Positions 2,031 through 25,846 of a stretch of DNA of 26,220 bases are shown one piece after another. A program made the translations under genes and the position numbers. The notes beneath the pieces were generated by a model that saw nothing but the letters and a program-made list of their open reading frames with translations, searched no databases and had not been told where the DNA came from. Position 1 is the first letter of the stretch, and each line of letters starts with the position of its first letter. Origin of the DNA: Chromera velia (Eukaryota; Sar; Chromeraceae); assembly GCA_018398765.1 (NCBI GenBank), contig JAHBMJ010004204.1, forward strand, positions 134,532 to 160,751, given 5' to 3'.

Positions 2031-2827
2031 TGAGCGCGTCCGAAGATGTGGCGCTTTCTTGGACCTTAGTGCCAAAAAAGAAACAAGCCTGCGGCGTCTC
2101 CAAACAACATTACTTTCAGAAGGCAATAAGTCGAACGAGTGTCGGTCGCACTGCTGTTGACAGCTGCAGCCAGTTCATGATCTGTTTCTCGCCGGCTGCT
2201 GATCTGCAAGGTATATAGTGTGAGCGAATGGCCCGACTCTAGCAGTGGTACGTGCATGTCCTCGGTTGGATTGGAGGTGACTTTTCAAGCAACTTGCTAG
2301 AGGTGCACGTGCTCGGTCAGGCTCTGCATGGCTCTGCATGCATGATTCTCCCTAACTCGTCTCGCGAAGCCTTTTCGACAGACTGTCACCAAAGCAAGTT
2401 GAAACACGAGGACGAAACTTGAGCACTTGGACGTGTCGGGCTTGAAGAAGCAGAGAAAAGCAGCATCTATATATCAGAGGAAGACACCCTCGCCGCGTCG
2501 GAAGTCAATCACACCGCGACGCGTGACCGCGTTGATGATCGTAGCTCGGAACCAGCGAGACGCCGTCTCCTTGTCTCTGCAATTAATTATCGCTTTCTTT
2601 AACTCGGAGTTAGTTCGCACACACACCGGTGTCACGAATGCCATCATTGACACGCGCAAATATTCTCTCTCTTCAAAGGTGGACGTGGGAACTAAAAGGC
2701 TTCAACACAATGAGGGAGCAGACTTCAGCACCGGAGACGGGAATGGAAGTTTTCAGCAATCGAATCTTTCTCGTGCCTTCTTTCTGGCTTTTCTTGTCGA
2801 GCAACGCAGCACAGCTTTTGAGCGAAG
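2031..2827. promoter_or_regulatory. Divergent intergenic region, probable bidirectional promoter
   Basis: About 800 bp separates the ATG of the minus-strand gene (2030) from the ATG of the large plus-strand gene (2828). Two TATA-like words are visible: TATATA near 2211-2217, about 180 bp upstream of the minus ATG, and TATATAT at 2468-2474, about 350 bp upstream of the plus ATG. A cluster of TGCATG words lies at about 2325-2345. Several short open frames in 2427-2976 overlap the start of the large gene in other frames and show no recognisable protein. A short 5' untranslated exon of the large gene could be here. Promoter function is inferred. Confidence 0.3.
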
Positions 2828-3580
2828 ATGCAACGCTCTTTTTTCTCGAGGTCCCTGAGGGCCGCTTTCAATTGGCCTGCAGAGACTATTCTCTTGTCCT
2901 TCAGGAATGGGATCTTTGCTGTGAGAGACAAGTCGGGGGCTTTCCATGCGGACAGGCGTTTGGAGCCTCTGTATAGAGAGAGGTTCCACCGTGTATTTAA
3001 TTTCTATGAAGGAGACGTCGCGGGGGTGGTCTCCAAGGAGGATCTTTCTTTTCACATTCACAGGAATGGACAAGCAGCGTACGGTCGACGGTTCGGGTGG
3101 GTGGGCAACTTTTTGAAGACGCCTGACGGCCCTCAGGCTCCTGTAAGATCGGCAAATGCTGATCAATACTTCGTGATCAATATCCGGGGTGAGGTTGAAG
3201 GAGGGCCGTTCAGGTACGTCGGGGACCCGAACTCGGAGGGTCAGCGCGTCGTGTGGACAGAGGAGGACTCTACCCCTGTGATAGTGGACAAGGACTTCCG
3301 TCCCTGGTGCAAGGAGACGGCAGAGACTTCCAAATGGATCGAGGCCTGTGTGCCTCATAAGGGACTGGCTGTGGTGAGAGACAGAGACGGATTCTTCTTC
3401 GTCAACCAGGAGGGGCGTGACGTAGGGAAGGGGAGACGGTACATGACCGCAGAGCCCCACTACAACGGACAGGCCCGTGTTCGTTTGTTTGATGGACGAT
3501 GGGCGGTGATTGATGAGGAAGGGCGTCAACTAGTTGACCTCGGGGAGTCCTCTCTGTCTGCCTCCACAGAGCTGGAGGCA
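2828..3580 (+). other. WG-type repeat domain of the giant protein (residues ~27-235)
   Basis: The segment has the alternation typical of bacterial WG repeats: an aromatic-rich turn, a Gly/Ala stretch, then an 'F-x-(I/V)-x-x-x-G' strand. Visible units include RVFNFYEGDVAGV, GWVGNF, YFVINIRGEVEGGPFRYVGD, KGLAVVRDRDGFFFVNQEG and HYNGQARVRLFDGRWAVIDEEG. In bacteria, domains of this kind precede methyltransferases in some surface-glycan loci (family knowledge from memory). They are thought to be binding or scaffold modules. What this one binds cannot be read from the sequence. Confidence 0.65.
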
Positions 3581-5225
3581 ATTTCTAAAGCCTACTGGTC
3601 GAGCTTCTCGTTGAAGCACATACTTGACTCTGACCTTCTCCGCAAAAGATGTCAGCGTGGAGGGGGGGCAGAAGTTCCACTTAGGAGTGATAAAAAGGGC
3701 TTAGAGAATCAGGAGATGGGCTCATTGGCAGCAGCAGGACAAGCCGAGGCCGTCCTGCTAGAGACGGCTGCAGAACTCGGCCTGTGCAGGTCTGCAGACT
3801 CATCAGAGAGACTTCAAAGTCCGCTTTCTTCTGCGAACTTCCTCCCAGACGTCACATTGCCGTCTCCTTCTGTGAAGGAATTGTCGAAACGAGGAGAGGC
3901 AGGGGGGTCCCCGAAGAGACTGGAGCTCTCGACGAGAGGCCGTCTCCTCACTTCCCCCTGTGACGAGACGGGAGGGCATTCTGAGATTGCAGACAGGTGT
4001 CAGTACTGGCTGCAGGACCGCTTTCTCATTCCCTGGATGAGAGGGATGAGAGGCCCCAGTGGGGAGGGGGCAGGGGTCTTTGAAGGGAATGCAAGAGAGA
4101 AAGACACGTTTGCGTCCATTGCAAAGGACCCGAAGGCGGTCTCCCTGTCCCAGCGGGTGCTTTCGTCCTATGCCTCTGAAGACTGGAAGGGCATTGCCGA
4201 GTACCTTCCTTTGAAAAAGAAAAATGTCGAGGGGGGGAGGGGGGAGGATCCCGCAAAGCCGTTGTATGCAGGGAACGAAGATCAGATGACGATTGTGGAC
4301 CTCGGTGGTGGGCAGGGGGTGCTCCTTCGTGAGATAGAGACGGCTCTTAGAGAGTCTGTGAGGGAGACTGGAGATTCGATCTGTCCCCCCCGCCTGATCT
4401 GTGTGGAGAGACCCGAGGTCGTGGCCCAGGCTACAGAAGGGGGGGGAGGGGCATGCCGGGGCCCTGGTGAAGTGTCGTGTGTGGAGTTCCAGGAGGGGGA
4501 CCTTTTCTCTGGTCCCCTTCCCCCTGCAGACTTGTATCTCCTCTCTCGTGTCCTCCATGATTGGCCCACAGATCGTTGCGTTGAGCTTCTCAAAAGAGTC
4601 AGAGAAGAGGCCCCAAAAGAGTCAAGACTGGTGGTGGTGGATCGTGTCAACGACCCCGAAAGGCATCGTCACGCGTTTCTGTCTCTCCACATGAATTTGA
4701 TTCAGAACGCACTCGAGAGGACTCAAACCGAGTGGGAGGATTTGTTCAAGTCGTCTGGATGGTTCCTGGAGAAACACAGGGACTTCAACAGACATGTGAT
4801 CTTCGCACTGTCCAAGCAACACGCACACACACAGACACAAACATCGGAGGACACACCCCAACTCCCAGTCTTCCAGAGCACACCCTCCCAGACAAACACG
4901 AACAGCGCAGGGGAGGTGCGCAAGGCGGTTATCCCCATCGCGGGAAGAGGGACACGCCTGGGCCTGCAGTCTGCGGCAACTCCGAAGGCTCTGCTTCCTC
5001 TCGCAGTGCGGACACAGACAGAGACAGATCTGAAGGAGGGCGGTTGTGGGGGGTCTTTGAAGGGCACAACACCCGAACAGGTATCCCTGATCCCATCCCT
5101 CTCTCTCCTGCTCAAGCAGCTGGACAACGCTGGAGGAGGGTGCATTGAGAAGGTCGGTCAGCTTCCTTTTAACCCAATTTCCACCCACTCATCACCACGT
5201 ACTCATGCAGACTCATGACAAGATG

Positions 5226-5310
<85 letters not shown>

Positions 5311-8300
5311 AGGGACACGGACGCACGTGCACACGGACGCACGTGCGCACAGCGCTCTGGCTGATCTCTCTATCACCACCCATCCGTGAATGTTTTCTGC
5401 TCACGGGAGGCTGTTGTTTGTTTCGTTCTTTTGTGTCTGCAGACGTGCCACCCTTTCTTTTTTTTTAGTAGGGGTCTATCTCATTTTCTGCTCTTTTCAG
5501 TTCTCCTTATCTCCCCCTCTCGTCTCTCTCTGTCTCGACGGGATTTTGCAGGTGTGCATTGTTGCCTCAGAGGAGCAGATCTCAGCCGTGGAGTCTCTCG
5601 TGAAGAACATGAAACGTGGCTTTGACAACAAAAAAGGACAGGGGGGCGGAGACGGAACCGCAGGGCTCAGAGCTGAGGTCTCGATTGTCGTTCAGGAAAG
5701 CCCCGAGGGATCCGGGGATGCGGTTTTGAGGGCGAAGGAGTTTGTGGGGGACGAGCCTTTCGTTTTGGCTCTGGGGGACCATGTGTTCTCTTCAGGTTGC
5801 GTTGAGTCTCTTCTCCTCGCCTGGAGACGTCTCCATCTGTCGGGGTCGGTGAGAGAGGCAGGGTCGGAGTGCGGGTTGGTAGATGGGAAAATGAGGGGCG
5901 TCTCTCTCTGCGGGGTGCGGGTGTGTGAGAGAGATGAGGTTGAAAGAACCGGGTTGCTTAGAGCCCACTCTGATCCAGTCGGGTCAGGGGCAAAAGAGCT
6001 TAAGTCGAGACTCCATGCCTTCTCAATGATGCCGTGGAGAGTGGCAGAGACGGCTGAGAAGCCTGCAGAAGGATCTGAAACCACGACACGATTTGCAATC
6101 CGAGGTCTTGGGGGTTTGCAAGGGGACTCTCTCTTCTACTCCCAACTGGTAGGCAGATCTTCGCTTTCGTCTTTTGGCATGCAGACGTCTTTCATCGTTG
6201 CTTCCTGCTTACCCTTTCAGTCGTCTTCTTCCCCCTTCTCTCCTTTCTTTTCCATTCCTTTCATTTCCTTCCGTGCGCTTCCCTTCGTGATTGTATCTCA
6301 AAACATCTCAACGCGGCAATTCCTCTCATCGGCTTTTTAAAATTTCCTTTGACATCGTGTGACTCATCAAAAGAATCACTTTCCTCCACGCCACTATCAT
6401 ATTCATATGTGTGCGATGCCGGCACCTTGCAGGGTGTCGACATTTTCTGTCCCAGAGTGTTCGAATTTCTCGAAAATGAAAAGAAGGCGCGGGAGAGGGG
6501 AATCGAAGAAGACAACCAGAGAGTTGGCCGGGGTCCCATTCTTCCCTCAGAACTCTGCATCCGTGAGGTTGTGCAGAGAAGTCTGGTGGCCCAGGGCAGC
6601 CTCTTCGCTTGCCTGATTGACGGTGCGGGGCTGGACATCGGGACCCCGTCGGCCTATGTTGGGGCCCTCCGCACGGTCTTGAATGCGTCCGCAGCATTCA
6701 GCGTGGAGAGGAATGAGCTGGCCTCTGTATGCTCATCAGAGAGAGTGAAAGTCACCGGTGAGCAGATGCTGGAAGCATTGAGGGGCCTGCAGTCTCTGTC
6801 GTTCAATGGAAGTTGTCACCCTCCCTCAGCTGTTGCTGCTCTCTTGTCTGCCGCGTCGGAGAAAATGACCGAAGGTTCCTTCGGGGTGCATATCGCGAGT
6901 GCTCCCGGAAGAATGGACCTCATGGGGGGGTTCGCTGACTACTCAGGGAGTGCAGCTCTGCAGGCTCAGACGGTAGAGCGCACATTCGTTTTGGCGACAG
7001 CGTTTCGCTCCCCCGGTCCTCCCCGGGTCCATTTGAGGGCCGTGCAGGCGAAAGATGTGGGGGCGTTTGTAAGGGGTGACTCGGCCTGTCTGTCAGGGCT
7101 GGCTGTGAGGGATTGTGAGTTTCCCTCTCACGGGACGCTCTTCTCCAACGGGGGGCGTCTGAGCTCTTCTGCGGAACTGAAAGAAGGGCTGCGTCTAGCT
7201 TTGCCGTCTCCGCCAACGTCAGAAAAAGAGGGGGGGTGCGATCCGCCAAGTGCGAAGTGGGCATTTTATCTGACTGGAATGCTCCACTCAGTCATGAAGG
7301 AAAAGCAGGTCGGCCAGTTGGTCTGCATCTCCGTCTGTCGTCTTGCAGGCTGTGCCCTTGTCTGCTTTCTTGCCTATCCAAAGTTGATGTCACTTTGTTG
7401 GTAGCCTCTTTCTTCCTTGCAGCCTTTTGTTTGACGCTACTTCTTTTCTTTTCTTATCCCTGCATAGGAGTGCAATGCCGCTGTTGCCAATGTCCCTCTG
7501 CCTCTCTGCTGTTGCAGCGTCGGGTTGGTGGGACTGTCGACTTCTCGAAGCTCTCATTTGCCCTCGTGAGCGTTTCAGATCTGCCTTGGAATTCGGGCCT
7601 CGCCTCCTCGGCCTCCGTGGAGGTGGCCACGGCGATGGCGGTGCAGAGGGCTCTGCAGGCAGTGAGTCGTGATCACATCTCCTCGTCCTTGTCTCTGTCA
7701 ACAGACAGAATTGCCCAACTCTGCCAGCAGGTCGAGCACGATGTCCTAGGGGCAAAGTGCGGTTTGATGGATCACCTCGCGGTCCTACACACAAATCACC
7801 CGATAGACACCCTCCCAGGAAACGTCCATTTGAATCCCCAGGGACAGCCTCAGACAGGACTGGTATCCATGGTCTGTAGAGAACCCCTGTCGTCCCCCCC
7901 ATCAGAGGGTGTCTTTCTGCCTCCTGGACTCACAACGATTGCTGTCGAGTCGGGGGTGACGCGGTCTGTTGCTACAAGTCCGTATGGGACTGTGCGCACT
8001 GCAGCTGCGGTGGGAAGGGATCTGATCATCGCGAGTCTGAGAGAGAACCTCCAACACTTGACTGACCTGTCCCCCTCAGCATTCGCACAGATGGCAGGGG
8101 AACTGCCAATCCGTCTGTCAGGAGAGGAACTCGCAGAGAGGTACAGTCAGCTCCTCTCTCAGAAGACACTGAGCGCTCTCCGTCCCGAAACCCTATACCC
8201 TGTGCGTGCGTCAACAGAGCACCCGATTCAAGAAAACTTCAGAGTGAACTCCTTCAGCAGTCTTCTGCAGACGCTCAACCTCACAGCAGCAGATCCAAAA

Positions 8301-10175
8301 AGAGGGCAGAGTAACAGGGGGGGACGAGCGGTGCCGTCTTTAGAGGAGCGTGTGTTTGGGCAGTTGGGGGAGTTGATGCGTCAAGCACACGTGTCCTATG
8401 GGAGGTGTGGATTGGGGTCATCAGCTACGGATGATCTGGTCCGTATGCTCACTGAAGGGGGAGAGGGGCGCTTGGCGGGTGTAGTGGGTGCAAAGGTGTC
8501 GGGCGGAGGTTCGGGTGGGTCGGTGGTTGCCCTTGTGAAAGTCCCAGAGGGCAGCTCTCCGTTTCCCTCCCCTGAGCAGAGAGGGAGGCTGGATGGGCTG
8601 GGCGCTCTATTCAGAGAGAGGAGGGGGGGGTCGGAATCCGCAGGCATTGTCCGTTGGGCTGTGCCTGGGAATGCCGGTGCCCTCTCTCACGGGTGCGTGT
8701 CGGGCATGACAGCCCTTGGTTGCCCTTCTGTGAGCTCCGCTGTGGGGTCACAGAAGCGTCTGTTCTCCTCCTGTGTGTCAAAAGGGGGATGTCGAAAGAG
8801 GGGGGGGCTGGAAGGGTTGAGTGGAAACAGTCAGGACGAGAAGGGGAAGGAAAAGGTCAGCAGTCCAGGTTGTTGGACCCCCTCCGTTTTGGTAGTCAAC
8901 CATGGTCTCCCTCCAGACTTCAATGGGGGGTCGGAAGTGTACGCTGAAACCTTGGCAGTCCAACTGCAGAAGTCAGGACTGTGCAGTCGGGTTGCTCTCT
9001 TTGCGAGAGAGCAGGACCCCTTTAGGCCAGATTTTGTTCTTCGGAAGGCGAAGGACAATGAAGTGAAAGCGGGGAAGGGGATTGAGAAGTATTTGATCAA
9101 CTTTCCTCGTGAGGCCCCGTACTATCGTTTCAAGGCTGTGCCTGTCGAGGAGGCATTCAGGTCCGTTGTGAGGGAAACGAAACCCGACATTGTCCATTTC
9201 CACCACCTGAATCATTTGTCCCTTGGCCTCCCCAAAGTAGCGAAGGAGGAAGGGGCCAGTGTTGTGAAGACTCTGCACGACTTTTTCGTCCTCTGTCCGA
9301 GAGGCCAATTTGTCGTTACAGGACCGACGCTCAGAGAGGGGCAGGAGCCATGGAGGGAGTGTGGGGGGCAAGAAGACAAGAAGTGTGCTCGTGAGTGTAT
9401 AGGCAGTCGGTATGAGACAGGCCTCGAAGACTCGTCTCTTCTCTCAATGCCTGATTCCACTTTGAGCTCTGAAGAACAGTACTGGACTCAGTGGGTGGGC
9501 AGACGGATGGCAGCCATGCGAGAGGCATGCCGTCACATCGATATGTTCCTAGCGCCCAGTCGGCATCTGATGTCGACGTTCAGCGAGAAATCCAGCATTC
9601 CGCCCGAGAAACTTCGGCACATGCCGTATGGCCTAGATCTCACTCGGGTTGAAGGGAGGCAGCGCGACCGGCCTGCTGTCTCTCCTGAGTCCCCCTTTGT
9701 GTTTGCATACATCGGAAGACATCAGGCATCCAAGGGCGTCAATCTACTGGTAGATGCTGCGTTGAATCTTCTCCAGGAAGACGGGGCGTCGAAGTACGGG
9801 GATGCTCCGGGGTTCCGAGTGAAGATCTTCGGCCGACACGAGACGCACGCGTACACAGTACACAGCCCTGCAGAGGAAGGTGATGGAGTGTGATCATCCC
9901 TATGCGTCGAGTGTGATTCAGTTCGAGGAAGAGTACTCGAACGATCAGATCGTGCAGAGCGTTTTCAACCATGTCGACTGTGTGGTTGTGCCGTCGATAT
10001 GGAGGGAGAACCAACCGTTGGTCATTCTCGAGAGCTTCCAAGCGGGAGTTCCTGTGATCACTTCTGAAGCAGGGGGCATGGGGGAGTTGGTTCAGGATGG
10101 TGTGAACGGGTTGACGTTCAGACACAGAGACGGGAACTCTCTGAAGGAAACCATGAAGAGAGCATTAAACGACCA

Positions 10176-10243
<68 letters not shown>

Positions 10244-12479
10244 GTCACACACAACTGACATGCTCCACCACAGACGGCACACAACCGTCGTCAGACTCAA
10301 GGAAGCCTCTCTTGCCGAGGGTAGCGAGACGCTGTTGGAGAGTCTCGGGGTCCTCTCTCTGCCCTTTCGGACTCAACAGGTACATTTGTGGTGCATATGC
10401 ATATAGATGGACACAAAAGAGCAACTGGGTGTAGGTAGAACAACGAGGTGCCCCTTTTGTGTCTGTCTCTTCGTCCAGTTTTTGTGGTTGCTTCTCTTTC
10501 CTGTATTGGATGGTCACCCTTCCACTCACTCCCGCTCTGCCTGAGTGCGTTGATACCCCCAATATTTTTCTTTTCCTCTGCATTTCCCTCCCCCTCTAAT
10601 CTATCTGCAGGTCTGAACAACCTTGAAGGGCCTCTGTCCGGTGTCGTCTCCGCAGAACAGACAGAGGGGGAGGGGATTTCCGAATCGCCCCGGACAGAGA
10701 CAGAGACAGACGCAGAGGCTGCTCCCCCGCCTCTGGAGGTTCTCCCTGCGCTCTACAGAGTGACGTTCGACACTAACCCAGATGATTGTAATTTTTCATG
10801 CACCATGTGCGAGCAGCACTCCGAGTATTCCCCTTTCCAGAAGGAGAGAATGGAGAAGGGCATCAGGAGAAGGAGGATGGACTTTCAGATCATCGAGAAG
10901 GTTGTCACAGAACTTGCCTCGAGAGGCCTTAAAGAGATCATCCCGACAACGATGGGCGAGCCGCTGATGTACAAAGAGCTGCCGAAGGTGATCGATCTGT
11001 GCAAAGAAAAAGGAATCAAAATGAATCTGACTACAAACGGTTCCTTCTACGGCAAAGGTGTTGACTGGTGGGCGCCTTTGATTGTTCCTGTGGGGTCTGA
11101 TGTGAAGGTTTCGTGGAACGGGATCTCTCAGGTCACACAGGAAAAAATCATGAAGAACTCTCGACTGGATAGACAGGTCGGTTGATTGGTTGGTCGAATG
11201 GTTGGCGCACTTCTACCCTTATTCCATGTACGCACCATCGAAGCTGTGTTTCTACTGTTCCTGCGGCTGTTTTTGCTCCCTGCTTTGAAACCCTCGCACT
11301 CTGCATGGGAATGTAGTCTTTCTTGTCGCCTTGGACATTGAGTGTCGATCCAGCTTTTCCTAAGTATGGTTCACTTCGATCACAGTGAACAGGTACTCCA
11401 CTCTCCAATGTACGTACTTCGTTGGTCCAATCAACTCTCTTTTGCGTTCACTTTAATTCATGGGATCACAGCTGTATCCTACACTTCGTGTGTGCATGCA
11501 GAAGGCTAACTTGGAGCGCCTCGTCTTTCACAGAGACGAGGAAGCAAAGAGGGGTGGGAACTACTGCGGCATCGCTTTACAACTCACTTTCATGGAGACG
11601 AACCTACCGGAAATTCCCGACCTTGTGCGATTCGCGATAGAGTCAGGATGCGATCGCGTGAAAGGGCACCACTTGTGGGCCCACTTTGCGGAGATGCAAG
11701 ACGAAAATCTGAGGAGATCGGAGGAGAGCATTCTCAGGTGGAATGCGGTGGCGAGAGAGTGCAGAGAGATTGCGGCATCGGTCCCTCGATGGAGGTCTCA
11801 AGAGAGAGAAGGAGTTGGCGAGCCTTTCATCAAGTCAGCACTGATCTGCTAGAAACATGTCGACTTTTGTTTATGTTTTTGAGTTACTGAGTGCAGGCAG
11901 AAACATGGTTGGTGACTGGATCTTCACAACTAAAATTCAAAGTGACAATCTATGGATTGATCGCCTGTGTGATGCGCTCCATGACTCTGCAGCATTGAGC
12001 GAATTATTGATACGCATCCGCATCAAAGTAAAGTTTTGAAGACATGAAGCAGTTACCCCTTTTTTGATTATAATTTGAAGCTCTTCAAGTGGGGGTGATT
12101 GCAACATTGCATCACCGAGCAAATGTTTTGGATGAATGGGAAAGCGGTAACTCTGTGCAGGTTGGTGAACTTCTATGATTTGAGCACCTCTGCTGCGGCT
12201 GGTCCTGAGGGGAGACCTGCAGAGATTCACCCCGAGGCCGTGTGCCCCTTCCTCGGGAGGGAGGCCTGGGTGAACTTTGGGGGAAGATTCGACCCCTGTT
12301 GTGCCCCTGATCACTTGAGGAAGAGTCTCGGTGACTTCGGCAAGGTGGGGGGGGAGGGAGGGAAGTCCGTTCTGGAGGTGTGGGAGTCTCCTGAGTATAG
12401 GGACCTGGTGAGGGGGTACCACCAAAGAGAGCTGTGCAAGGGGTGCAACATGAGGGTGCCCCCTGGGACGAGGGTCTGA
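2828..12479 (+). CDS. Giant fusion protein: WG repeats, O-methyltransferase, sugar nucleotidyltransferase, GHMP sugar kinase, GT4 glycosyltransferase, radical SAM/SPASM
   Basis: Seven exons are supported by frame, splice sites and domain continuity: 2828-5152, 5552-6148, 6433-7308, 7518-10243, 10611-11176, 11502-11833 and 12161-12479 (TGA 12477-12479). The phases agree at every junction once a 7-bp tandem duplication at 9852-9865 is discounted; the product would be about 2,577 aa. Domain order: WG repeats (~27-235), Methyltransf_2 (~300-660), GalU-like nucleotidyltransferase (~697-1060), arabinokinase-like GHMP kinase (~1125-1650), GT4 (~1720-2150), radical SAM (~2215-2470), SPASM-like tail (~2472-2577). 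Introns are 209-399 bp, begin GTCGGT, GTAGGC, GTCGGC, GTCACA, GTCGGT and GTCAGC, and end in (T/C/A/G)TGCAG. The exon 4 donor at 10244 is the least certain. Linkers are rich in Gly, Ser and Glu, as expected in a nuclear gene. Each domain alone is bacterial in character, and together they form a plausible sugar activation, transfer and modification pathway. There is no clear signal peptide; the start is the first ATG before the first WG unit. Alternatives are a polycistron-like set of separate genes, for which I see no internal starts, or a recent pseudogene. Confidence 0.8.
3725..4830 (+). other. Methyltransf_2-type O-methyltransferase domain
   Basis: This resembles SAM-dependent O-methyltransferases of the plant caffeate/bacterial antibiotic type. 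A short dimerisation helix (AVLLETAAELGLC) and the stretch LSQRVLSSYASEDWKGIAEY precede motif I, VDLGGGQG, at about residues 490-497. The adenosine-binding acidic residue lies in CVERPEVV, followed by EGDLFSGPLPPADLYLLSRV. The active-site segment VLHDWPTDRCVELLKRVRE carries the family's catalytic-base His at about residue 577. The end (EWEDLFKSSGWFLEKH) also fits. All key motifs are present, so the domain could be active. A long polar insert separates the WG domain from this core. Confidence 0.8.
4916..6690 (+). other. GalU/RmlA-type sugar-1-phosphate nucleotidyltransferase domain (three exons)
   Basis: The domain starts at about residue 697 with VRKAVIPIAGRGTRLG and TPKALLPL, the G-x-G-T-R and P-K nucleotide-binding signature of NTP_transferase enzymes. 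After the first intron it resumes as CIEKVCIVASEEQ. It continues with the GDAVLRAKEFVGDEPFVLALGDHVF stretch, which holds the metal-binding Asp in LGDHVF and closely follows the GalU pattern. It ends in exon 3 with LIDGAGLDIGTPSAYVGALR, where DIGTP is diagnostic of this family's C-terminal part. It is expected to join a sugar-1-phosphate with UTP or dTTP, releasing pyrophosphate. The exact sugar and nucleotide cannot be told. The exons are separated by introns 5153-5551 and 6149-6432. Confidence 0.8.
5226..5346. repeat. (CA)n microsatellite plus a duplicated GC-rich unit in intron 1 of the giant gene
   Basis: About 80 bp of (CA)n with TC and TA interruptions is followed by a direct repeat containing ACGGACGCACGTGC twice. 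It lies within intron 5153-5551. Confidence 0.9.
6880..8700 (+). other. L-arabinokinase-like GHMP kinase domain (two exons)
   Basis: The first GHMP motif is ASAPGRMDLMGGFADYSG at about residues 1129-1146. The exact 'APGRxDxMGGxADYSG' form is that of plant L-arabinokinase rather than galactokinase, which has N-L-I-G-E-H. After intron 7309-7517 the ATP-binding motif appears as GLASSASVEVA (about 1293-1303). It is followed by CQQVEHDVLGAKCGLMDHLA, SGVTRSVATSPYGTVR, VRASTEHPIQENFRV and a C-terminal GHMP motif, GAKVSGGGSGGSV. All three catalytic motifs are intact. The expected reaction is ATP-dependent phosphorylation at C1 of a free sugar (arabinose or a related pentose or uronate), feeding the adjacent nucleotidyltransferase. 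A kinase-pyrophosphorylase fusion is known in plant fucose salvage (FKGP), but with a different nucleotidyltransferase and the same idea of salvage. Confidence 0.8.
9852..9865 (+). repeat. 7-bp tandem duplication causing a frameshift
   Basis: TACACAG occurs twice in direct succession at 9852-9858 and 9859-9865. The upstream frame runs into TGA at 9891, while the conserved GT4 reading downstream needs one copy fewer. A 16-bp GT...AG stretch at 9858-9873 would also restore the frame if spliced, but this is far below usual intron sizes here. Confidence 0.8.
10174..10241. repeat. (CA)n tract, apparently coding for about 22 His-Thr residues
   Basis: A CA repeat with two CATA interruptions follows directly on the GT4 reading frame (AAC GAC, then CAC ACA...). 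It ends at CAG T|GTCACA, where a phase-1 donor matches the acceptor at 10610. In the favoured model the repeat is translated. No GT donor lies between the last GT4 helix and the repeat. Confidence 0.7.
10611..11833 (+). other. Radical SAM domain (two exons)
   Basis: The core begins ALYRVTFDTNPDDCNFSCTM. Its C-x3-C-x2-C cluster motif (Cys at about residues 2232, 2236 and 2239) binds the 4Fe-4S cluster that cleaves S-adenosylmethionine. It continues with MDFQIIEKVV and IIPTTMGEPLMYKELPKVIDL, where MGEPL is the SAM-binding 'GGE'-like element. LTTNGSFYG (strand 3) and VKVSWNG follow. After intron 11177-11501 it resumes KANLERLVFHRDEEAKRGG and ends ESGCDRVKGHHLWAHFAEMQ. The FDTNPDDCN form suggests a bacterial subfamily whose product I cannot name. 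Substrates of radical SAM/SPASM enzymes include peptides and sugars. Confidence 0.8.
12161..12479 (+). other. SPASM-like cysteine-rich C-terminal domain (last exon)
   Basis: The last exon follows an in-phase TGCAG acceptor (AA|G junction with exon 6). It reads LVNFYDLSTSAA, then VCPFLGREAWVNFGGRFDPC and CAPD, and closes with LVRGYHQRELCKGCNMR before TGA. The spacing C-P-F-x5-W-V-x2-G-G-x3-P-C-C and the final C-x2-C are typical of SPASM domains, which hold auxiliary iron-sulfur clusters in radical SAM maturases. Confidence 0.7.
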
Positions 12480-13601: not shown

Positions 13602-13643
13602 ACTGGGGTTAGGCATCCTCTAACTAACTAACTAACCGACTAA
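13602..13643 (+). repeat. Isolated copy of the LINE 3' end (hairpin plus CTAA tail)
   Basis: ACTGGGGTTAGGCATCCTCT followed by (AACT)n matches the end of the RT element at 19573-19618, with one difference (CATC versus CATT) before the repeats. GTTAG and CTAAC can pair across a 7-nt loop. Upstream sequence is not similar to the element, so this would be an almost completely 5'-truncated insertion. Confidence 0.55.
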
Positions 13644-14029
13644 CAACCATTGCTAGCTCTAACTAGCTATAGAATAAATTAATTGATATATGAATTTTGT
13701 AGAAACAATCATGATATCTATAGTAATATCTGTAACAAACAGTCCTAAATATTTCTAAAGATTTAACTTGCCACATGTTTGTCATGCTACTTGTAAAAGC
13801 TGGTTTAAAACACCATTAATAATTTAATATTGAATTATATTGAATCAAAACCTAGATCAAAACATATGTCAAAATCAATTGTCAAAAGCATCATGATGTC
13901 TCAGGCTGAAAATTGAATCGAAGTCTGAGAAGATTCAATCGACTCGTCAATCTTAGTCAATCTTGCAAAAAAACCGCCAAAGAGCGCACACGAGTCTTGA
14001 AATGGCATTTTTGAGTAGCCACTCAGGGC

Positions 14030-16896: not shown

Positions 16897-19434
16897 GGCC
16901 TGTGAAACCGAAAAAGGACGGAGCAGGGTTTGGGTGGGGGGTTAAGCGTAGAACGAAAGAGGCTTGGTTTGATGAAGAATGCAAGTCCATGCAAAAGGAA
17001 GTGAGGGAGGCGGACCGCGTTTGGAAGTTGGTGAGAGATGTGGGTGGGAGAGGGTTGGAATTCGATCGCCTTCAGAGACTACTCCGGGTCCGCCGTAGCC
17101 TCTTTAAACGCAAACAGGCTGCTTGGAAGAAGAAAGAAGCACAGAGGGTTCAAGAAGAACTCCTCAAGGATCCTCTCTCCCTTTGGAAAAGGAAGAAGAA
17201 AGCCGCGCTGTGGTGTATCACGCCCGTCCCCCCGCGCATTCTCGAACTATTGGGCGGGTGTTTTTGAAGATTCGAACGAGGAGCCTCTCCCTTCGGTCCA
17301 TCCCCCTGCCCCTCCTCCCTTCCACCCCTCTGCTCTGCCCTTCTCTTTTCACCAGATCTCTTCCCACCTGAAGAAAATGAACAAGAAGAAAGCTGCCGGC
17401 CTTGAAGGCATCTCTCCCGCACAGCTAGATCTCTACTTTGCCGAATCTGCCCTCTCCCGCTTTTTACTTTTTGTTTTATTTAACCTGATGCATATTCATG
17501 CTTGCTGGCCTCCTTCATGGAATGTTTTGCGCATTTGCCCAGTTCCGAAAGGCCCTGCTTCCCCCTCTCCCAACGAATGGAGACCAATCCATGTTGTGAA
17601 CTCTTTTGCAAAACTTTTCGGCCGCCTGATGGACTGCCGTGTGCGTTCCCAGGTCCGTCTTAACTTCAGACAGCTGGGGTTCCGTGAAGGGGTGGGAACG
17701 AGAGAGGGGGTTGGTGCTCTTGCCTCTGTTGTCTCTTCGTGCAAAAAGAAAAGAAAGGCTCTGTTGGCAGGTTTTGTTGACTTTTCAAAGGCGTTTGACA
17801 CTGTGCCGAGAGCAAAGTTAATTCAGAAACTGAGAAATGAGGGCGTGAGTGAGGCAGACATCTGCATGATCTGTGAAATATACAGAGAGGTATGGGGCAA
17901 GGTTGATGGGAACTCTCTACGTTTTCGGGAAGGCGCTGGAGTGAAGCAAAGGGATGCCCTCTCACTTATTATTTTTCTTCTGTACATAAATGATCTCCCC
18001 CGTGTGTGTTCTGCAAGTAAGAGCGAGGCAAGGCATGCCAGCGAGGCAGTCGAGCAAGAGTCGGCAGACGTAGAAATGGAAGCGAGCAGTAGAGAGGAGC
18101 CAGAGAGCGAGCCGGAGCCAGTTTTGCTGGATGATTGTATCCTGGACAGTTTGGGTTATGCTGATGATCTCTGCTTTCTTGCCTATTCCGTCTCAGACCT
18201 TCAATTAAAAAAAATTCTCTGCTCAAGTATTGCAAAGAATTGAGACTTACAGTCAATCTGAAAAAGACAAAGATTCTCTACCTGTCTGCCTCTGTATTTG
18301 GGGAAAGCTCCGGTTTGGTGGTGTATGAAGGGAAAGAGGTTCAATGGGCAACGGAATACAAGTACTTGGGGTGCCTGTTCTTTGAGGGGGGATGCCTCAG
18401 TGAGACAGTTGAATCGCGTATAACTTCGGCCTCGCACGCCCTGGAGGCTATGTTTGGTCTGATTGCCAGCATGGGTCCCCTCAGTGTAGATGCGCAGATG
18501 ACTGTTTTTAGAGCGTGTTGGTGCCCTGTCGCACTGTACTGCCTCGAATGCTTCCCTCTTCGTGATGCCGATCTTCTTGCAATCGATGCTTTACAGCTCC
18601 GTTTTATATGCTGGTCTGGCCGTCTGTCGGCTCGCAGTCTTCGTTTGCCCTCCCTGTGTATTTTCGGCCTGCTTCCTGCAAAAGCCCTGCTTTGCTCTAG
18701 AGTGGCCGACTGGTGGTGCTCGCTCTCGCAAACTATGCACACCGTTCCCGCTGCAATGCCGCGTGCCTCGAAGGGAAACAGTTGTCCAGAGTTTTCGAGA
18801 GCTTCCTTGCGGCTGTTTCGTTGGGCTGGTCTGGATTTTGTTTGTTCGTTGGAGGTGGGAGTGCCGCAACACCCTGGTACCAGCGGGCAGCAGCGACGGA
18901 GAGTTTAAGGCACCGGCTCTCTCTTCTTTAAGGGCAGAGCTAGACATACAGTTGCAGAAGAGGTCTGCACGCAGCGGGCGGGGGCTATCGTTTCTTCGCA
19001 TTTCCCTCCTCTTGCCAAGCTTACCCCCCTTCAACAAGCTTTTCCCTTCTCTCATCACATTGATTCACATGTTTGTGTTTCTTCTTTGCAATAAATCCGC
19101 CTTTGGTCTCTACTCCTTTTCTGCCTTCCCTCGATCTGCTCTCATAGTAACCGACGGCTCTCTATTCGGTTTCTTACGTCTGCTCTCATTTAACTCACAA
19201 GGCGAAAGTAGTGCTCTGTCTGTTGAATGTAGCGACCACAAACTCTGTGTACATGATTCTTGTATTCGGTGTGTTGATGACTTCATGCATAGACTTTCTT
19301 CATGTGCCAAGTGGCTGAATGAAAGAGAATTTCTGCACTGCCTGGCTGAGCTAGAATCCATTAATTCAAATGATTGTAACTGTCCACTCCCTGGTGCAAG
19401 TACATCTGAACTCTTCATCCGTAATGTTATTTGA
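16897..19434 (+). pseudogene. LINE reverse transcriptase, broken in about three places
   Basis: RT fingers: MNKKKAAGLEGISPAQLD and VPKGPASPSPNEWRPIHVVN. Motif A is FVDFSKAFDTV (about 17771-17803). Motif B is GVKQRDALSLIIFLLYINDL, where the usual G-D-P-L-S-P is changed to R-D-A-L-S-L. Motif C is YADD (18157-18168). An acidic insert of about 40 residues (rich in SEAR, EEPESEPEP) lies between B and C, which is unusual. The thumb has KKTKILYLSA and EYKYLGCLFFEGG. The C-terminus holds a C-x-D-x-C...H-x4-C type cluster (CIRCVDDFMHRLSSCAKW). Frames change near 17230 (a C run), near 18205-18215 (an A8 run) and near 18860-18905. The first two lie at homopolymers, so sequence error is possible, but the altered motif B supports real decay. 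Confidence 0.75.
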
Positions 19435-19572: not shown

Positions 19573-19618
19573 AACTGGGGTTAGGCATTCTCTAACTAAC
19601 TAACTAACTAACTAACTA
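19573..19618 (+). repeat. LINE 3' terminal hairpin and (CTAA)n tail
   Basis: ACTGGGGTTAGGCATTCTCT precedes about seven AACT units. GTTAG pairs with CTAAC across a 7-nt loop, placing a stem directly before the simple repeat. This resembles the stem plus short tandem tail that LINE reverse transcriptases recognise to prime on their own RNA. Confidence 0.65.
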
Positions 19619-21682: not shown

Positions 21683-24532
21683 TCAAGGTGCACAATCTGC
21701 GGAGGAAATCAGATTACACTCGTTGCAGGATGGAAAGTCTTTCTCATGAATGCAGATGCCCTTCCGTCCGCAGTCATTACAACGTGACAGAATGCGTCCA
21801 TCCTCACAAATGCCCTTCCCCCCGCAATCCTTGCACCGTGAGCGCTGGCGGCCGTGCTCACAGATGCTTGCACCTCCGCACTCTTTGCACTGGGCACGAA
21901 TGCGACCATGCCCACAAAGGCCCTTCCCCCCGCACTCCGTGCAACGTGAGCGAATGCGTCCATGCTCACAAATGCTCCCACCTCCGCACTCGTTGCACTG
22001 AGAGCGAATACGACCGTGCTCACAAAACCCCCTCCCCCCGCAGTGTTTGCACTTAGAGCGCTGTCGACCGTGCTCACAAATGCTCCCACCTCCGCACTCC
22101 TTGCACTGAGAGCGAATGCGGCCGTGCTCACAAATGCTCTTCCCTCCACACTCCTTGCACTGGGAGCGAATGCGTCCATGCTCACAAAGGCCCTTCCCCC
22201 CGCACTCCTTGCAATGAGAGCGCCGTCGGCCGTGCTCACAGACGCTCGCACCTCCGCACTCCTTGCACGAAAACCGGTGTCGGCCGTGTTCACATATGCC
22301 CTTCCCCCCGCACTCTTTGCACTTAGAGCGCTGTCGACCGTGCTCACAAAGGCCCTTCCCCCCGCACTCTTTGCACTGAGAGCGCCGTCGGCCGTGCTCA
22401 CAGATGCTCGCACCCCCGCACTCCTTGCACGAACAGCGGTGTCGGCCGTGTTCACATATGCCCTTCCCCCCGCACTCCTTGCACTGGGAGCGAATGCGTC
22501 CATGCTCACAGATGCTCGCACCTCCACACTCCTTGCACTGAGAGCGCCGTCGGCCGTGCTCACAGATGCTCGCACCCCCGCACTCCTTGCACGAACAGCG
22601 GTGTCGGCCGTGTTCACATATGCCCTTCCCCCCGCACTCTTTGCACTTAGAGCGCTGTCGACCGTGCTCACAAAGGCCCTTCCCCCCGCACTCTTTGCAC
22701 TGAGAGCGCCGTCGGCCGTGCTCACAGATGCTCGCACCCCCGCACTCCTTGCACGAACAGCGGTGTCGGCCGTGTTCACATATGCCCTTCCCCCCGCACT
22801 CCTTGCACTGGGAGCGAATGCGTCCATGCTCACAGATGCTCGCACCTCCACACTCCTTGCACTGAGAGCGCCGCCGTCCATGTTCACAGAGGATCCGTCC
22901 GTGCTTGTTTCTCAGAGTCTTGACCTCCCCCGCATGTCCTCTCTTTCCCCCTTCCCTCCTCACAGACACGCTCTTGTGCCCACTGCCCCCCTCTTTGTTG
23001 TGAGTGCGAGGACAGCCGTGGAGACACAGGTCTACCCTCTGAAGACTCCTGTCCATTCCCTGCTCCCCCCCTTCTCCCACTTCTTCAACCTTTCTCTTCA
23101 AATGATCTCGATGACTCGTCTCATGCCCCCCGCCCTGCTCAGTCACTCCATCGTTGAAGGATGGGAGACGGGCGTTCTGAAGTTGCGGGACTGTCGGAAA
23201 GGTGTGTGCAGAAACATTTCTTTCTCTCGCCAAATTCACTTGACGGCTTCCCTTGTCTGACTGCGGTTCGGAAACTGAAGCGGAAAGAGAAGAGACACGG
23301 CGGCGTTTTGATCCCCCACATGCGGCAGACGAGCACAGCCACTGCCCGTCTACAGATGGCTGTTGGAAGATCGAGTCACTCTCTCCGACCAACAGACCAG
23401 AACCAGGCACAACATCGCATCCACCGGACCGGGTCACACCATTCACACCCCCTGCATTCTTCCCAGCCCCTCCCAGCAAATCCCCCTCTTCCCTCCCCAC
23501 CCCCCACCGATTCTTCAGAGATGCAGGTGCAAATCGGAGTGCCTCGTGACAGTCACTGTCTTCATACCCTCTTTTCAGTCCGTTCACCCCACCCCCCTGC
23601 CTTCGCATAAACACATCAGCAGAGGTCTCAAGACGACCCCGAGAAACAGACACACAGTTACTCTCAGCAGACTCAGCAGATGAAACCAGAGTGTTGGCAT
23701 TCTCAACATCGTGCTGTGACGACACCCTGTCTCTGCGAATGAGAAGATCATCCTCAAACTGTACATACGGACCCGTCCCACCCCCCTTCTCCTTTCCCTT
23801 TCCACTCTCTCTGTGTGAAGAAGATAAATGGGCAGAAGGCAGTGGAGAGGCAGAAAGCAATGCAGAGTCACTCTCTACAGGGACGTCACGGACCAAACAG
23901 TGGCCCTCAAAAGGACCCCCGAGGCTCTTTCCGCCATGCGTTCCCCCCATCTTCTTCTCCCTGCCCGTCTCAGGTACGAACTCTGAGGACACAGAGGGTG
24001 GCGGGTGCTCAGAGACTTCGAAGTGCTGTTGCGCTGACACCATGTCCTCTTGTGCTAACGGAGTCACCTGCGTCTCCCTCTCTCCCCATCGCCCACCAAA
24101 CAACGCAAACCCACCATTCACGACCTCCACCTCCCGCGGCCCACACCCCAAAGGCTCCCAGACGCACCCAAAACAGTCCTGACTTCGACCGTTCGGGGAA
24201 GCTGCTGCTGAGAGCGCAGAGGTGACTTGGAAAGAGCTCTGAGACCATTGAGTCAACCCATGATTGGACAAAGGCATTGCATCACACGATGACGAACCCG
24301 ATTCGATCAGGGCAAACTGAAATCGTACTTGAGAGCACGTGCTGTGATGCATCGGAAACGACATCCACACTCTTGAGAAGGCAGGGTTCTTCACTCGGTA
24401 GAGAGCGATACCGCGACTTGCGTCCCACTCTCCGAGTTCAGAGCTGCTCCCAACAACCACCAGCATCTGCCCCTCCCGAGGCTCCACCCCAGTGCAAGCA
24501 AAAAGCACACCACCCCCCGCGTTTGCCTCCAT
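21683..24532 (-). CDS. CBM20 starch-binding domain protein with 22 tandem C-H-C-C repeats
   Basis: Uninterrupted frame from ATG 24532 to the stop at 21683, 949 aa. The same frame stays open a few codons upstream but without an ATG. Residues 8-76 match the CBM20 pattern: VLFACTGVEPREGQMLVVVG, SSELGEWDASRGIALYRV, then a conserved Trp in RVWMSFPMHH and VRFQFALIE. Trp36 and Trp56 are candidate glucan-stacking residues. Residues ~90-545 are a polar, Ser/Gly/Glu-rich, probably disordered region. Residues 549-940 are 22 units of 18 aa with consensus C-E-H-G-R-x-R-S-x-C-K-E-C-G-G-K/A-G/S-I, each offering C, H, C and C for one zinc. The last two units are degenerate. Such repeats are common in algae and oomycetes, but their role is unknown to me. 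There is no signal peptide, so a cytosolic location, where chromerids and dinoflagellates store starch, would fit (inference). Antisense and alternate frames through the array are open only because the repeat lacks stops. Confidence 0.8.
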   Translation of the reverse strand: MEANAGGGVLFACTGVEPREGQMLVVVGSSSELGEWDASRGIALYRVKNPAFSRVWMSFPMHHSTCSQVRFQFALIESGSSSCDAMPLSNHGLTQWSQSSFQVTSALSAAASPNGRSQDCFGCVWEPLGCGPREVEVVNGGFALFGGRWGERETQVTPLAQEDMVSAQQHFEVSEHPPPSVSSEFVPETGREKKMGGTHGGKSLGGPFEGHCLVRDVPVESDSALLSASPLPSAHLSSSHRESGKGKEKGGGTGPYVQFEDDLLIRRDRVSSQHDVENANTLVSSAESAESNCVSVSRGRLETSADVFMRRQGGGVNGLKRGYEDSDCHEALRFAPASLKNRWGVGREEGDLLGGAGKNAGGVNGVTRSGGCDVVPGSGLLVGESDSIFQQPSVDGQWLCSSAACGGSKRRRVSSLSASVSEPQSDKGSRQVNLARERNVSAHTFPTVPQLQNARLPSFNDGVTEQGGGHETSHRDHLKRKVEEVGEGGEQGMDRSLQRVDLCLHGCPRTHNKEGGSGHKSVSVRREGGKRGHAGEVKTLRNKHGRILCEHGRRRSQCKECGGASICEHGRIRSQCKECGGKGICEHGRHRCSCKECGGASICEHGRRRSQCKECGGKGLCEHGRQRSKCKECGGKGICEHGRHRCSCKECGGASICEHGRRRSQCKECGGASICEHGRIRSQCKECGGKGICEHGRHRCSCKECGGASICEHGRRRSQCKECGGKGLCEHGRQRSKCKECGGKGICEHGRHRFSCKECGGASVCEHGRRRSHCKECGGKGLCEHGRIRSQCKECGGKSICEHGRIRSQCKECGGGSICEHGRQRSKCKHCGGRGFCEHGRIRSQCNECGGGSICEHGRIRSRCTECGGKGLCGHGRIRAQCKECGGASICEHGRQRSRCKDCGGKGICEDGRILSRCNDCGRKGICIHEKDFPSCNECNLISSADCAP
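21713..22888 (-). repeat. 54-bp coding tandem array with a 324-bp higher-order repeat
   Basis: 22 copies of a 54-bp unit. By the residues after GR, units 1-12 follow the order RRSQ, IRSQ, HRCS, RRSQ, QRSK, HRCS (the last copy HRFS) twice, a period of six units. The nucleotide match is nearly exact over 324 bp; for example, GTCGGCCGTGTTCACATATG occurs at both 22441 and 22765. Units 13-22 are more diverged, so the array appears to have grown at its N-terminal end. Confidence 0.85.
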
Positions 24533-25846
24533 TACGGACAATCGGTCAATCAAGCAAAATTGCCAACCAGAGAGACAACCAGAAGCCCCGGCCTCAGAGA
24601 TCTCTGCAGGATATCAAACAACGCACATGAGTCAATTCACGATTGGATTATTTGCAAACAAGCTCTCAAGGAGTCTACTTTTCAACACCGCTGGGGGGGA
24701 AGTCTCCAAACAGGCACTCACTGACCTCAGGAGAAGACACTCGCGACAGGTCGCTGATGGCGGTGGAGACAAAACAGTCCTTCAGAGAACGAATGACTCG
24801 GGCAGTGAGCAGCGAACGAAACTTTTCTCAACCCGAAGAAGAGGAACGCGATCCCGAGCAGAGACTTGTCCTCGTGACCAAAAGACAAACTCAGTCAACA
24901 GCGACTTGAATCAGAGCTTCGGCAACGGGCGAGACAATCACCTAATCACCGAGACAGACCGCACGCGAAGCCGCTCGCTGGCTCTGAAATTATCCACTGC
25001 TTGAACCCAGCTGAGATGAGAAGTGCCTCTCTGGTTCCGCAACCCGACAAAGGAGTCAACGAAGTTTCCGATCAAGGTCGAAGATCAAGCGAGCTCGGAC
25101 TCTATACAGATCGAAGACACCGAGACACCTCCAAGTACACAGAGGATCCAAAAGTGCTTTGTGACCGCGTTTTTACCTGATTCCTTGGGAGAATCCTGAT
25201 TCACGTGTACACCATAGCTACCAGAGATGTATACATATATAGTTTGGCATTCTTATGCATTCTTAATTGTGAAATGAATGGCACAGTCTCAAGTAAAGTG
25301 AGACCAAGTTCAGAGGTCGACGATCGCTTTCAATTAATGTCACATGCAAGTTCGACGGTAACTTCGACCCGCGCACGCGCGCATCACGCGCACTGCATGA
25401 GTGACATATGAGTGACGATGCATGATGCAGTGGCATCTGTAGCTCGTTGCAAATCAGTTGGCACTGTTGAATTTAAATGCATGCATGCATCCGCCTAGCG
25501 GGCCCGGCTGCATGTGCATGCATCAATCATGCTGACCGTCTACGTATCGTGATTATGATATCAGAGCTAAAAATTAATCAAACAGCAGATTCAGTTCTCC
25601 ACTACTACCATATGAAAAGCTACCTCACAACGAAGCTCAAGACCCTTTAAAACCATATATAGTCGAGCAGGCTCCACCTATAAAGAGTTAAATCTCGCAA
25701 ATTTTCACAGGTAGACTAAAGCCTTAAAGATTGTAACTTTCATGGGGGGCACATCTGTTGCTTCCTGTCTTCTTCCTTCTCTCTCGTCTGTCCCATCGCG
25801 AGAAGAGTGACATGTGCTTACTTAGCACGCACATGCATGGATCTTG
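24533..25846. other. Upstream region of the CBM20 gene, no credible gene
   Basis: Plus-strand open frames here (up to about 170 codons) are polar and low in complexity and overlap the N-terminal coding region of the CBM20 gene, so I treat them as chance. From 25200 on the sequence has TATATA (25228-25240), a (CGCGCA)-type run near 25370-25390 and a dense TGCATGCA cluster at 25475-25525 with an inverted-repeat character. Promoter elements of the minus-strand gene and of the right-edge ORF probably lie here. Confidence 0.4.

Follow-up and report, generated by a model that had tools for sequence, protein, structure and literature searches.

Can a single eukaryotic gene encode the activation of a sugar, its transfer and the modification of the product? 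The question is raised by a stretch of 26,220 nucleotides from the alga Chromera velia, hereafter the window (GenBank assembly GCA_018398765.1, contig JAHBMJ010004204.1, positions 134,532 to 160,751), in which a preliminary description had recognised one spliced gene at 2828..12479 on the forward strand. Six modules were assigned to it: WG repeats, an O-methyltransferase, a GalU-type nucleotidyltransferase, an arabinokinase-like kinase, a GT4 glycosyltransferase and a radical S-adenosylmethionine (SAM)/SPASM enzyme. Our analysis finds that for most of this length the fusion is real, and unusual; its last joint is weaker. The modules at either end have relatives in UC4 and UC3, two adjoining genes of the Undecim Cluster of phage WO, and we consider it probable, judging from sequence, that a spliced nuclear gene joins these relatives around a GalU-type nucleotidyltransferase and a GHMP kinase in one long chain.

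A fusion written mostly within single exons

The gene consists of seven exons and six introns with GT-AG ends (Table 1); the exon end points were placed by hand from motif positions and from donor, acceptor and phase output. Its long open frames measure 798 codons (2822-5218, exon 1), 441 codons and 924 codons, and the GHMP_kinases_N, GHMP_kinases_C and Glyco_transf_4 domains all lie within the 924-codon frame. The boundaries between WG repeats and methyltransferase and between methyltransferase and nucleotidyltransferase fall inside exon 1, that between nucleotidyltransferase and kinase inside exon 3, and that between kinase and GT4 inside exon 4. Since four of the five module boundaries are contained within single open exons, the fusion from the WG repeats to the N-terminal half of GT4 is written in the DNA, independently of any guess about splicing. 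Over these modules the claim of one spliced frame stands; at the joint between GT4 and radical SAM, where the frame breaks and junction 4 is strained, it is weaker.

Table 1. Features of the gene in window coordinates.
Feature	Position	Strand	Content
Exon 1	2828..5152	+	775 codons; WG repeats ~2906-3553, O-methyltransferase core ~4289-4762, nucleotidyltransferase start ~4913-5152
Exon 2	5552..6148	+	Middle of GalU-type nucleotidyltransferase; phase 0 on both sides
Exon 3	6433..7308	+	Nucleotidyltransferase end and GHMP kinase start (APGRMDLMGGFADYSG, from ~6877)
Exon 4, first part	7518..9851	+	Rest of GHMP kinase (to ~8550) and N-terminal half of GT4 (from ~8870)
Tandem 7-bp repeat, TACACAG x2	9852..9865	+	Reading frame shifts here
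Exon 4, second part	9866..10333	+	C-terminal half of GT4 (ENQPLVILE), then (CA)n ~10173-10242; candidate exon ends 10243, 10333, 10379
Exon 5	10611..11176	+	Linker and radical SAM core (CNFSCTMC)
Exon 6	11502..11794	+	Radical SAM domain continued; gapless alignment over junction 5
Exon 7	12161..12479	+	SPASM (CPFLGREAW...CCAPD...CKGCN) and stop codon

Junctions 1, 2, 3 and 5 are of phase 0 and junction 6 is of phase 2, so that five of the six junctions fit, as had been claimed for all six; junction 4 is the one that departs. Exons 5 to 7 (10613-11176, 11502-11794, 12161-12479) join as one open frame up to the stop codon, and the protein alignment crosses junction 5 with no gap and junction 6 with a gap of five residues. 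With the donor at 10334 the predicted chain would come, by arithmetic, to 2,594 residues, against the ~2,577 given at first.

All six modules were recovered, by different routes and with different strength. The domain scan that had been proposed as a check gave a Pfam domain order matching the six-module expectation and reported Methyltransf_2 (E 1.4e-24; 1.3e-24 in a later scan), GHMP_kinases_N (1.2e-11) and GHMP_kinases_C (5.5e-5, both over the cut-off), Glyco_transf_4 (2e-13), Glyco_trans_1_4 (7.5e-16), Radical_SAM (1.4e-9) and SPASM (3.1e-7). The WG repeats, by contrast, fell below Pfam reporting, at E 0.1 in the scan of the window and at E 0.05 in a later scan. They were recovered with a profile of bacterial UC4 proteins, which matched residues 27-271 of exon 1 with 112.7 bits and the methyltransferase part, colinearly, with 12.3 bits.

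The sugar-activation pair occupies the middle of the chain. For the nucleotidyltransferase, NTP_transferase scored 18.4 bits on exon 2 alone and 24.7 bits on the spliced sequence (cut-off 21.2), exon 2 matched the RmlA and GalU models at 1.5e-6 and 2.1e-6, and the end of exon 1 matched the N-terminal stretch of GalU at E 0.0015. For the kinase, the GalKase_gal_bdg signature (2.5e-4) lay slightly under its own cut-off, and the best match in the PDB was AbGHMP (9ulx, 6.7e-41), followed by galactokinases at 4.1e-10. AbGHMP (9ulx, 9uly) has APGR-D-MGG-ADYSGS and the later GHMP motifs in common with the algal kinase; a literature search found no paper on it. Within the plant kinases, we take the algal enzyme to resemble ARA1, of the arabinokinase type. 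As specificity controls modules were searched against 72,556 plasmid records; a plasmid search with the kinase found nothing but weak galactokinase matches, in five records.

A comparable order is known from FKGP, the bifunctional fucokinase/GDP-fucose pyrophosphorylase of sugar salvage, in which the pyrophosphorylase part precedes the GHMP kinase part in one chain. The algal gene differs in that its nucleotidyltransferase is of GalU type and in that a Pfam scan of the spliced nucleotidyltransferase and kinase at E 0.05 found no fucose-pyrophosphorylase or fucokinase domain.

Relatives in the Undecim Cluster

When the spliced radical SAM sequence was used to scan prokaryote genomes, one relative was found, in a Midichloriaceae genome bin (Rickettsiales), at 47% identity. 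In the loci of the relatives the radical SAM enzyme is fused to GT4 or lies beside it; next come a gene for a WG-methyltransferase and one of PhyH type. Searching phage records with the radical SAM part returned two Wolbachia phage WO records, one of which shows UC1-UC11 around the match. The cluster is the Undecim Cluster, WD0611-WD0621, a mobile island of eleven genes found in intracellular symbionts, in which UC3 (WD0613) adjoins UC4 (WD0614). UC3 is described as an N-terminal glycosyltransferase fused to a C-terminal radical SAM domain, and the region is reported to have been exchanged between Wolbachia and a pREIS2-bearing Rickettsia; Cardinium and Phycorickettsia are also reported to have homologues, and the functions given are predictions (PMC9203015). 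Elsewhere they are called unknown and a duplication is reported in strain wPau (PMC12801941). The novelty claimed for the architecture therefore survives for the chain as a whole, within the searches made, but not for its ends, which correspond to UC3 (GT4 and radical SAM) and UC4 (WG and methyltransferase). Likewise, sugar activation, transfer and modification was a fair reading of the modules, most of whose fusion lies in single exons, but it had overlooked the symbiont relative.

Within the order, 24 of the 343 genomes searched had the radical SAM enzyme (1e-30), with a UC4 homologue beside it in all 21 of the surroundings read from those 24 genomes (20 regions and locus L006). An even sample of the phylum, 398 genomes in all, gave one match (1e-20), the query genome itself. 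Our bacterial and phage comparison set comprised 26 loci (L006, L010-L013, L036-L056), several of them nearly identical, each read over at most ~29 kb, and a 27th, the mobile contig L057 (IMGVR_UViG_2917530833_000001), read over 14.6 of its 45.8 kb. UC3 and UC4 homologues were present in 26 of the 26, UC1 in nine, and UC2-UC3-UC4-UC5 stood in a row in 23; the exceptions were L013, which is without UC2 and UC5, and L037 and L038, which stop at contig edges. The nearest matches to UC2 were UDP-glucose 4-epimerase and then UDP-glucuronate decarboxylase (best 60 of 124). In phage WO the cluster starts with a nucleotidyltransferase, UC1, and for UC10 the annotation gives UDP-glucose 6-dehydrogenase.

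The likeness of the algal C-terminal part to UC3 is specific. Against the plasmid records the radical SAM part scored 330-335 bits (45-47% identity) with three Arsenophonus plasmids and at most 61 bits with the other eight of 11 records, while the GT4 half scored 179-182 bits with the same three Arsenophonus records and at most 71 with the other 27 of 30 matches. Identity to the 26 bacterial rows was 46.6-50.3% for radical SAM and 37.8-43.1% for GT4; another comparison of the spliced radical SAM domain with bacterial copies gave 45-49%. Both glutamates of the EX7E motif of GT4 are common to all 26 rows, as is GSEVY save for one position in one row, and so are all eight radical SAM/SPASM cysteines tested (CxxxCxxC and five in the SPASM exon). 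UC3 and the algal part agree in their two domains, in the order of these and in the catalytic residues tested; in contrast, the algal part ends a longer chain, is split by introns, has a frame break in GT4 and has no UC2 or UC5 neighbour that we could see. GT4 and radical SAM share a single frame in 23 rows out of 26 (22 of 776-787 residues, plus L013) and are separate genes in the Arsenophonus plasmids L010-L012 and in L057. In L010 (7828-10196, with equivalents in L011 and L012) both genes are open frames that are unlisted in the plasmid gene tables shown. The phage contig L013 (2-11754), which has genes for portal and terminase, bears as cargo a fusion of GT4 with radical SAM and also a WG protein.

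UC4 resembles the algal N-terminal part in having WG repeats followed by a methyltransferase, colinear with the algal order. The WG match is specific, since at E 0.01 the WG region found three plasmid records, all of them Arsenophonus UC4. The algal enzyme and UC4 differ at the SAM-binding site: the algal motif DLGGGQG is missing from 23 of the 23 scorable symbiont UC4 rows, in a region where the alignment is weak (of the 26 rows, two end early and L013 is without the methyltransferase part). The separate methyltransferase of L057, which scores 70-80 bits against Arsenophonus UC4, has IIDVGGGLGA. Because the motif is absent from all 23 rows while this related enzyme keeps it, symbiont UC4 looks like a methyltransferase fold that has lost its SAM site; L036 14987-16678 is an example of a UC4 copy without SAM-binding motif I.

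In L057 (8689-14648) GT4, radical SAM, O-methyltransferase and WG repeats are encoded by separate genes, the same four kinds of module as in the alga but unfused, perhaps representing the unfused state; unlike the algal locus it has an additional tyrosine-phosphatase-like gene and a phage-type integrase alongside. Taken together, these comparisons suggest that the UC3/UC4 core has a eukaryotic counterpart in the algal gene, which carries a sugar-activation pair as well. A nucleoside-antibiotic reading of the symbiont cluster might be drawn from its PhyH and threonine-aldolase-like genes. The aminoglycoside cluster of R. buchneri was considered as a relative and set aside, as no radical SAM, WG or PhyH gene is among the gene rows consulted (PMC8770908; PMC6300072).

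What weighs against one joined pathway

Several observations weigh against our reading, the first of them at the joint between GT4 and radical SAM, which is the weaker joint of the chain. The 7-bp frame break noted in the preliminary description is there, as a perfect tandem repeat, and the codon-usage scores switch frame at it; in the 6,675 bases that are clearly coding, a perfect tandem 7-mer stands at three positions. Junction 4 closes only beyond the break, and only if the donor lies at 10244 or 10334. At 10380, CAG|GTACAT is out of phase as a donor, yet the codon-usage scores mildly favour the frame leading to it, and the frame preference changes again beyond the (CA)n tract. Because of the frame break and of a junction that does not close cleanly, the radical SAM part may be unjoined or the gene may be decaying.

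The first of these possibilities is that there are two neighbouring genes, one running from the WG repeats to GT4 and ending near 9891 or 10379, the other encoding radical SAM/SPASM in exons 5-7. A stop in the frame at 9891-9893 after the repeat, the less favoured donors required by junction 4, and the fact that L057 and the Arsenophonus plasmids encode GT4 and radical SAM separately all speak for it. However, the coding of GT4 resumes in the next frame after the break and keeps EX7E, most of the bacterial rows carry the two domains in one frame, and the frame that starts at 10439 has no methionine ahead of CxxxCxxC, so that the second gene would need an upstream exon. We consider two genes unlikely.

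If instead the repeat is a genuine frameshift, the gene would be decaying and the full chain would not be made, and the (CA)n tract in the same exon and the renewed shift of frame preference after it are in keeping with such decay. Nevertheless, the radical SAM exons are without stops and keep the tested cysteines, the other exons are open, and assemblies can also go wrong at short tandem repeats and at (CA)n tracts. Decay is, in our view, improbable.

The sugar-activation pair is the second point. Support for the nucleotidyltransferase is weak, the best PDB hit, of GalU type (6e-9), covering 41 residues, and neither kinase nor nucleotidyltransferase was found in any of the 26 bacterial loci (E 1e-4 and E 1e-5; a kinase gene lying beyond the stretches read would be missed) or in the part of L057 read. 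With 27 bacterial and phage loci read without either, the partnership of the two enzymes rests on this one gene. Their absence from those loci would also suit modules that serve unrelated reactions, with the GT4 donor drawn from a general pool. Against this, the nucleotidyltransferase and kinase lie between the UC4-like and the UC3-like parts in one chain, and the phage WO cluster itself starts with a nucleotidyltransferase. Unrelated reactions seem to us as improbable as decay.

The methyltransferase is a third. It matched 123 plasmid records with up to 79 bits; the best 60 of the 123 were ordinary O-methyltransferases or unannotated, and no Arsenophonus record was among them. Scored with a common program, hydroxyindole O-methyltransferase reached 61.5 bits, the L057 enzyme 48.4 and UC4 at most 22.4. 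As it is no closer to the cluster's own methyltransferase than to ordinary O-methyltransferases, the algal enzyme may, from its sequence, be a separate recruitment; its place in the chain, and not its likeness, is what suggests descent from UC4.

Nor does the rest of the island accompany the gene. The eleven-gene island UC1-UC11 was not found with the algal gene, in which the UC4 part precedes the UC3 part, the reverse of the order in the cluster. A joined UC2 and UC5 query against the assembly (E 0.001, exon by exon, so that a spliced gene could escape) found no UC5 and a single weak UC2-type match, on the bacterial-looking contig C4039. Finally, no close relative of solved structure names the substrate: matches were at E 1e-10 for the UC3 GT4 and at best 3.1e-5 for radical SAM.

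Proposed working, origin and surroundings

Based on these comparisons, we propose a model for how the joined chain could work. First, the kinase would phosphorylate a free sugar with ATP to give sugar 1-phosphate, which the nucleotidyltransferase would convert to a nucleoside diphosphate sugar (NDP-sugar). GT4 would then transfer the sugar from the NDP-sugar to an acceptor, and the radical SAM enzyme and the methyltransferase would modify the product, with the WG part as a scaffold or binding module. We infer every reaction, the order of the steps, the sugar, the acceptor and the product, as well as production of the full chain despite the 7-bp break. By gene-fusion logic the symbiont cluster would have the same role in activation and transfer, with UC1, UC2 (of epimerase/dehydratase type) and UC10 supplying the NDP-sugar instead. 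Because UC2 is epimerase- or decarboxylase-like and UC10 carries the annotation of a UDP-glucose 6-dehydrogenase, GT4 enzymes of one kind could receive a UDP-sugar in both the algal and the symbiont system, in what would be a convergence.

A wider proposal, quite possible but short of what we would call probable, is that a eukaryote took up the Undecim core and turned it into a one-chain factory for sugar activation, transfer, radical chemistry and O-methylation, that the symbiont cluster makes a modified glycoside, and that UC4 derives from a working O-methyltransferase. The route from free sugar to NDP-sugar to modified glycoside would offer a hypothesis, the first that can be tested, for what the Undecim Cluster does and, if true, a symbiont-type biosynthetic core would have been built into a nuclear gene. 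Our searches found no open-licence paper with both Chromera and the Undecim Cluster, in the wider searches among the matches listed.

Transfer from a symbiont to a eukaryote is the simplest story, and Phycorickettsia (Rickettsiaceae) is an algal symbiont; the trees leave the direction undecided. Unrooted trees, built with no outgroup, set the algal radical SAM and GT4 rows apart from the 26 bacterial rows, each at the end of a long branch. With three distant plasmid outgroups, and with the near-identical L047, L050-L053 and L055 left out, the radical SAM tree is unresolved, the outgroup branches being 6-10 changes per column. Neither a constraint placing the bacterial rows together (p-AU 0.362) nor one placing the algal row with L057 (p-AU 0.387) was rejected.

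The host assembly (177.8 Mb in 4,040 contigs) is without relatives in the genome collection used, and among the best candidates listed its only radical SAM of this type is in the window's own exons. Although contig C4039 shows that the assembly also holds bacterial-looking DNA, it is very improbable that the gene is a bacterial contaminant or that a symbiont cluster was wrongly assembled with algal DNA, given that the gene has six GT-AG introns, that the window contains no Ns, that reverse transcriptase and CBM20 frames lie farther along it, and that none of the 26 bacterial rows exceeds 50.3% identity to the radical SAM part. On C4039, two pieces of ~3.8 kb (around 80129-80980, L002, and 129251-130918, L003) have a GC content of 0.66-0.68, with 95-96% under open frames, and contain two nucleotidyltransferase matches and an epimerase-type match.

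Downstream of the gene, the window has a reverse transcriptase at 17035-18240 on the forward strand (RVT_1, 1.8e-13), flanked, by eye, by GGGGTTAGGCAT followed by CTAA repeats at ~13605-13645 and ~19575-19618. Farther on, a 976-codon frame on the reverse strand (21683-24613) encodes a CBM20 starch-binding domain (3.4e-7) and, again by eye, many cysteine-rich repeats.

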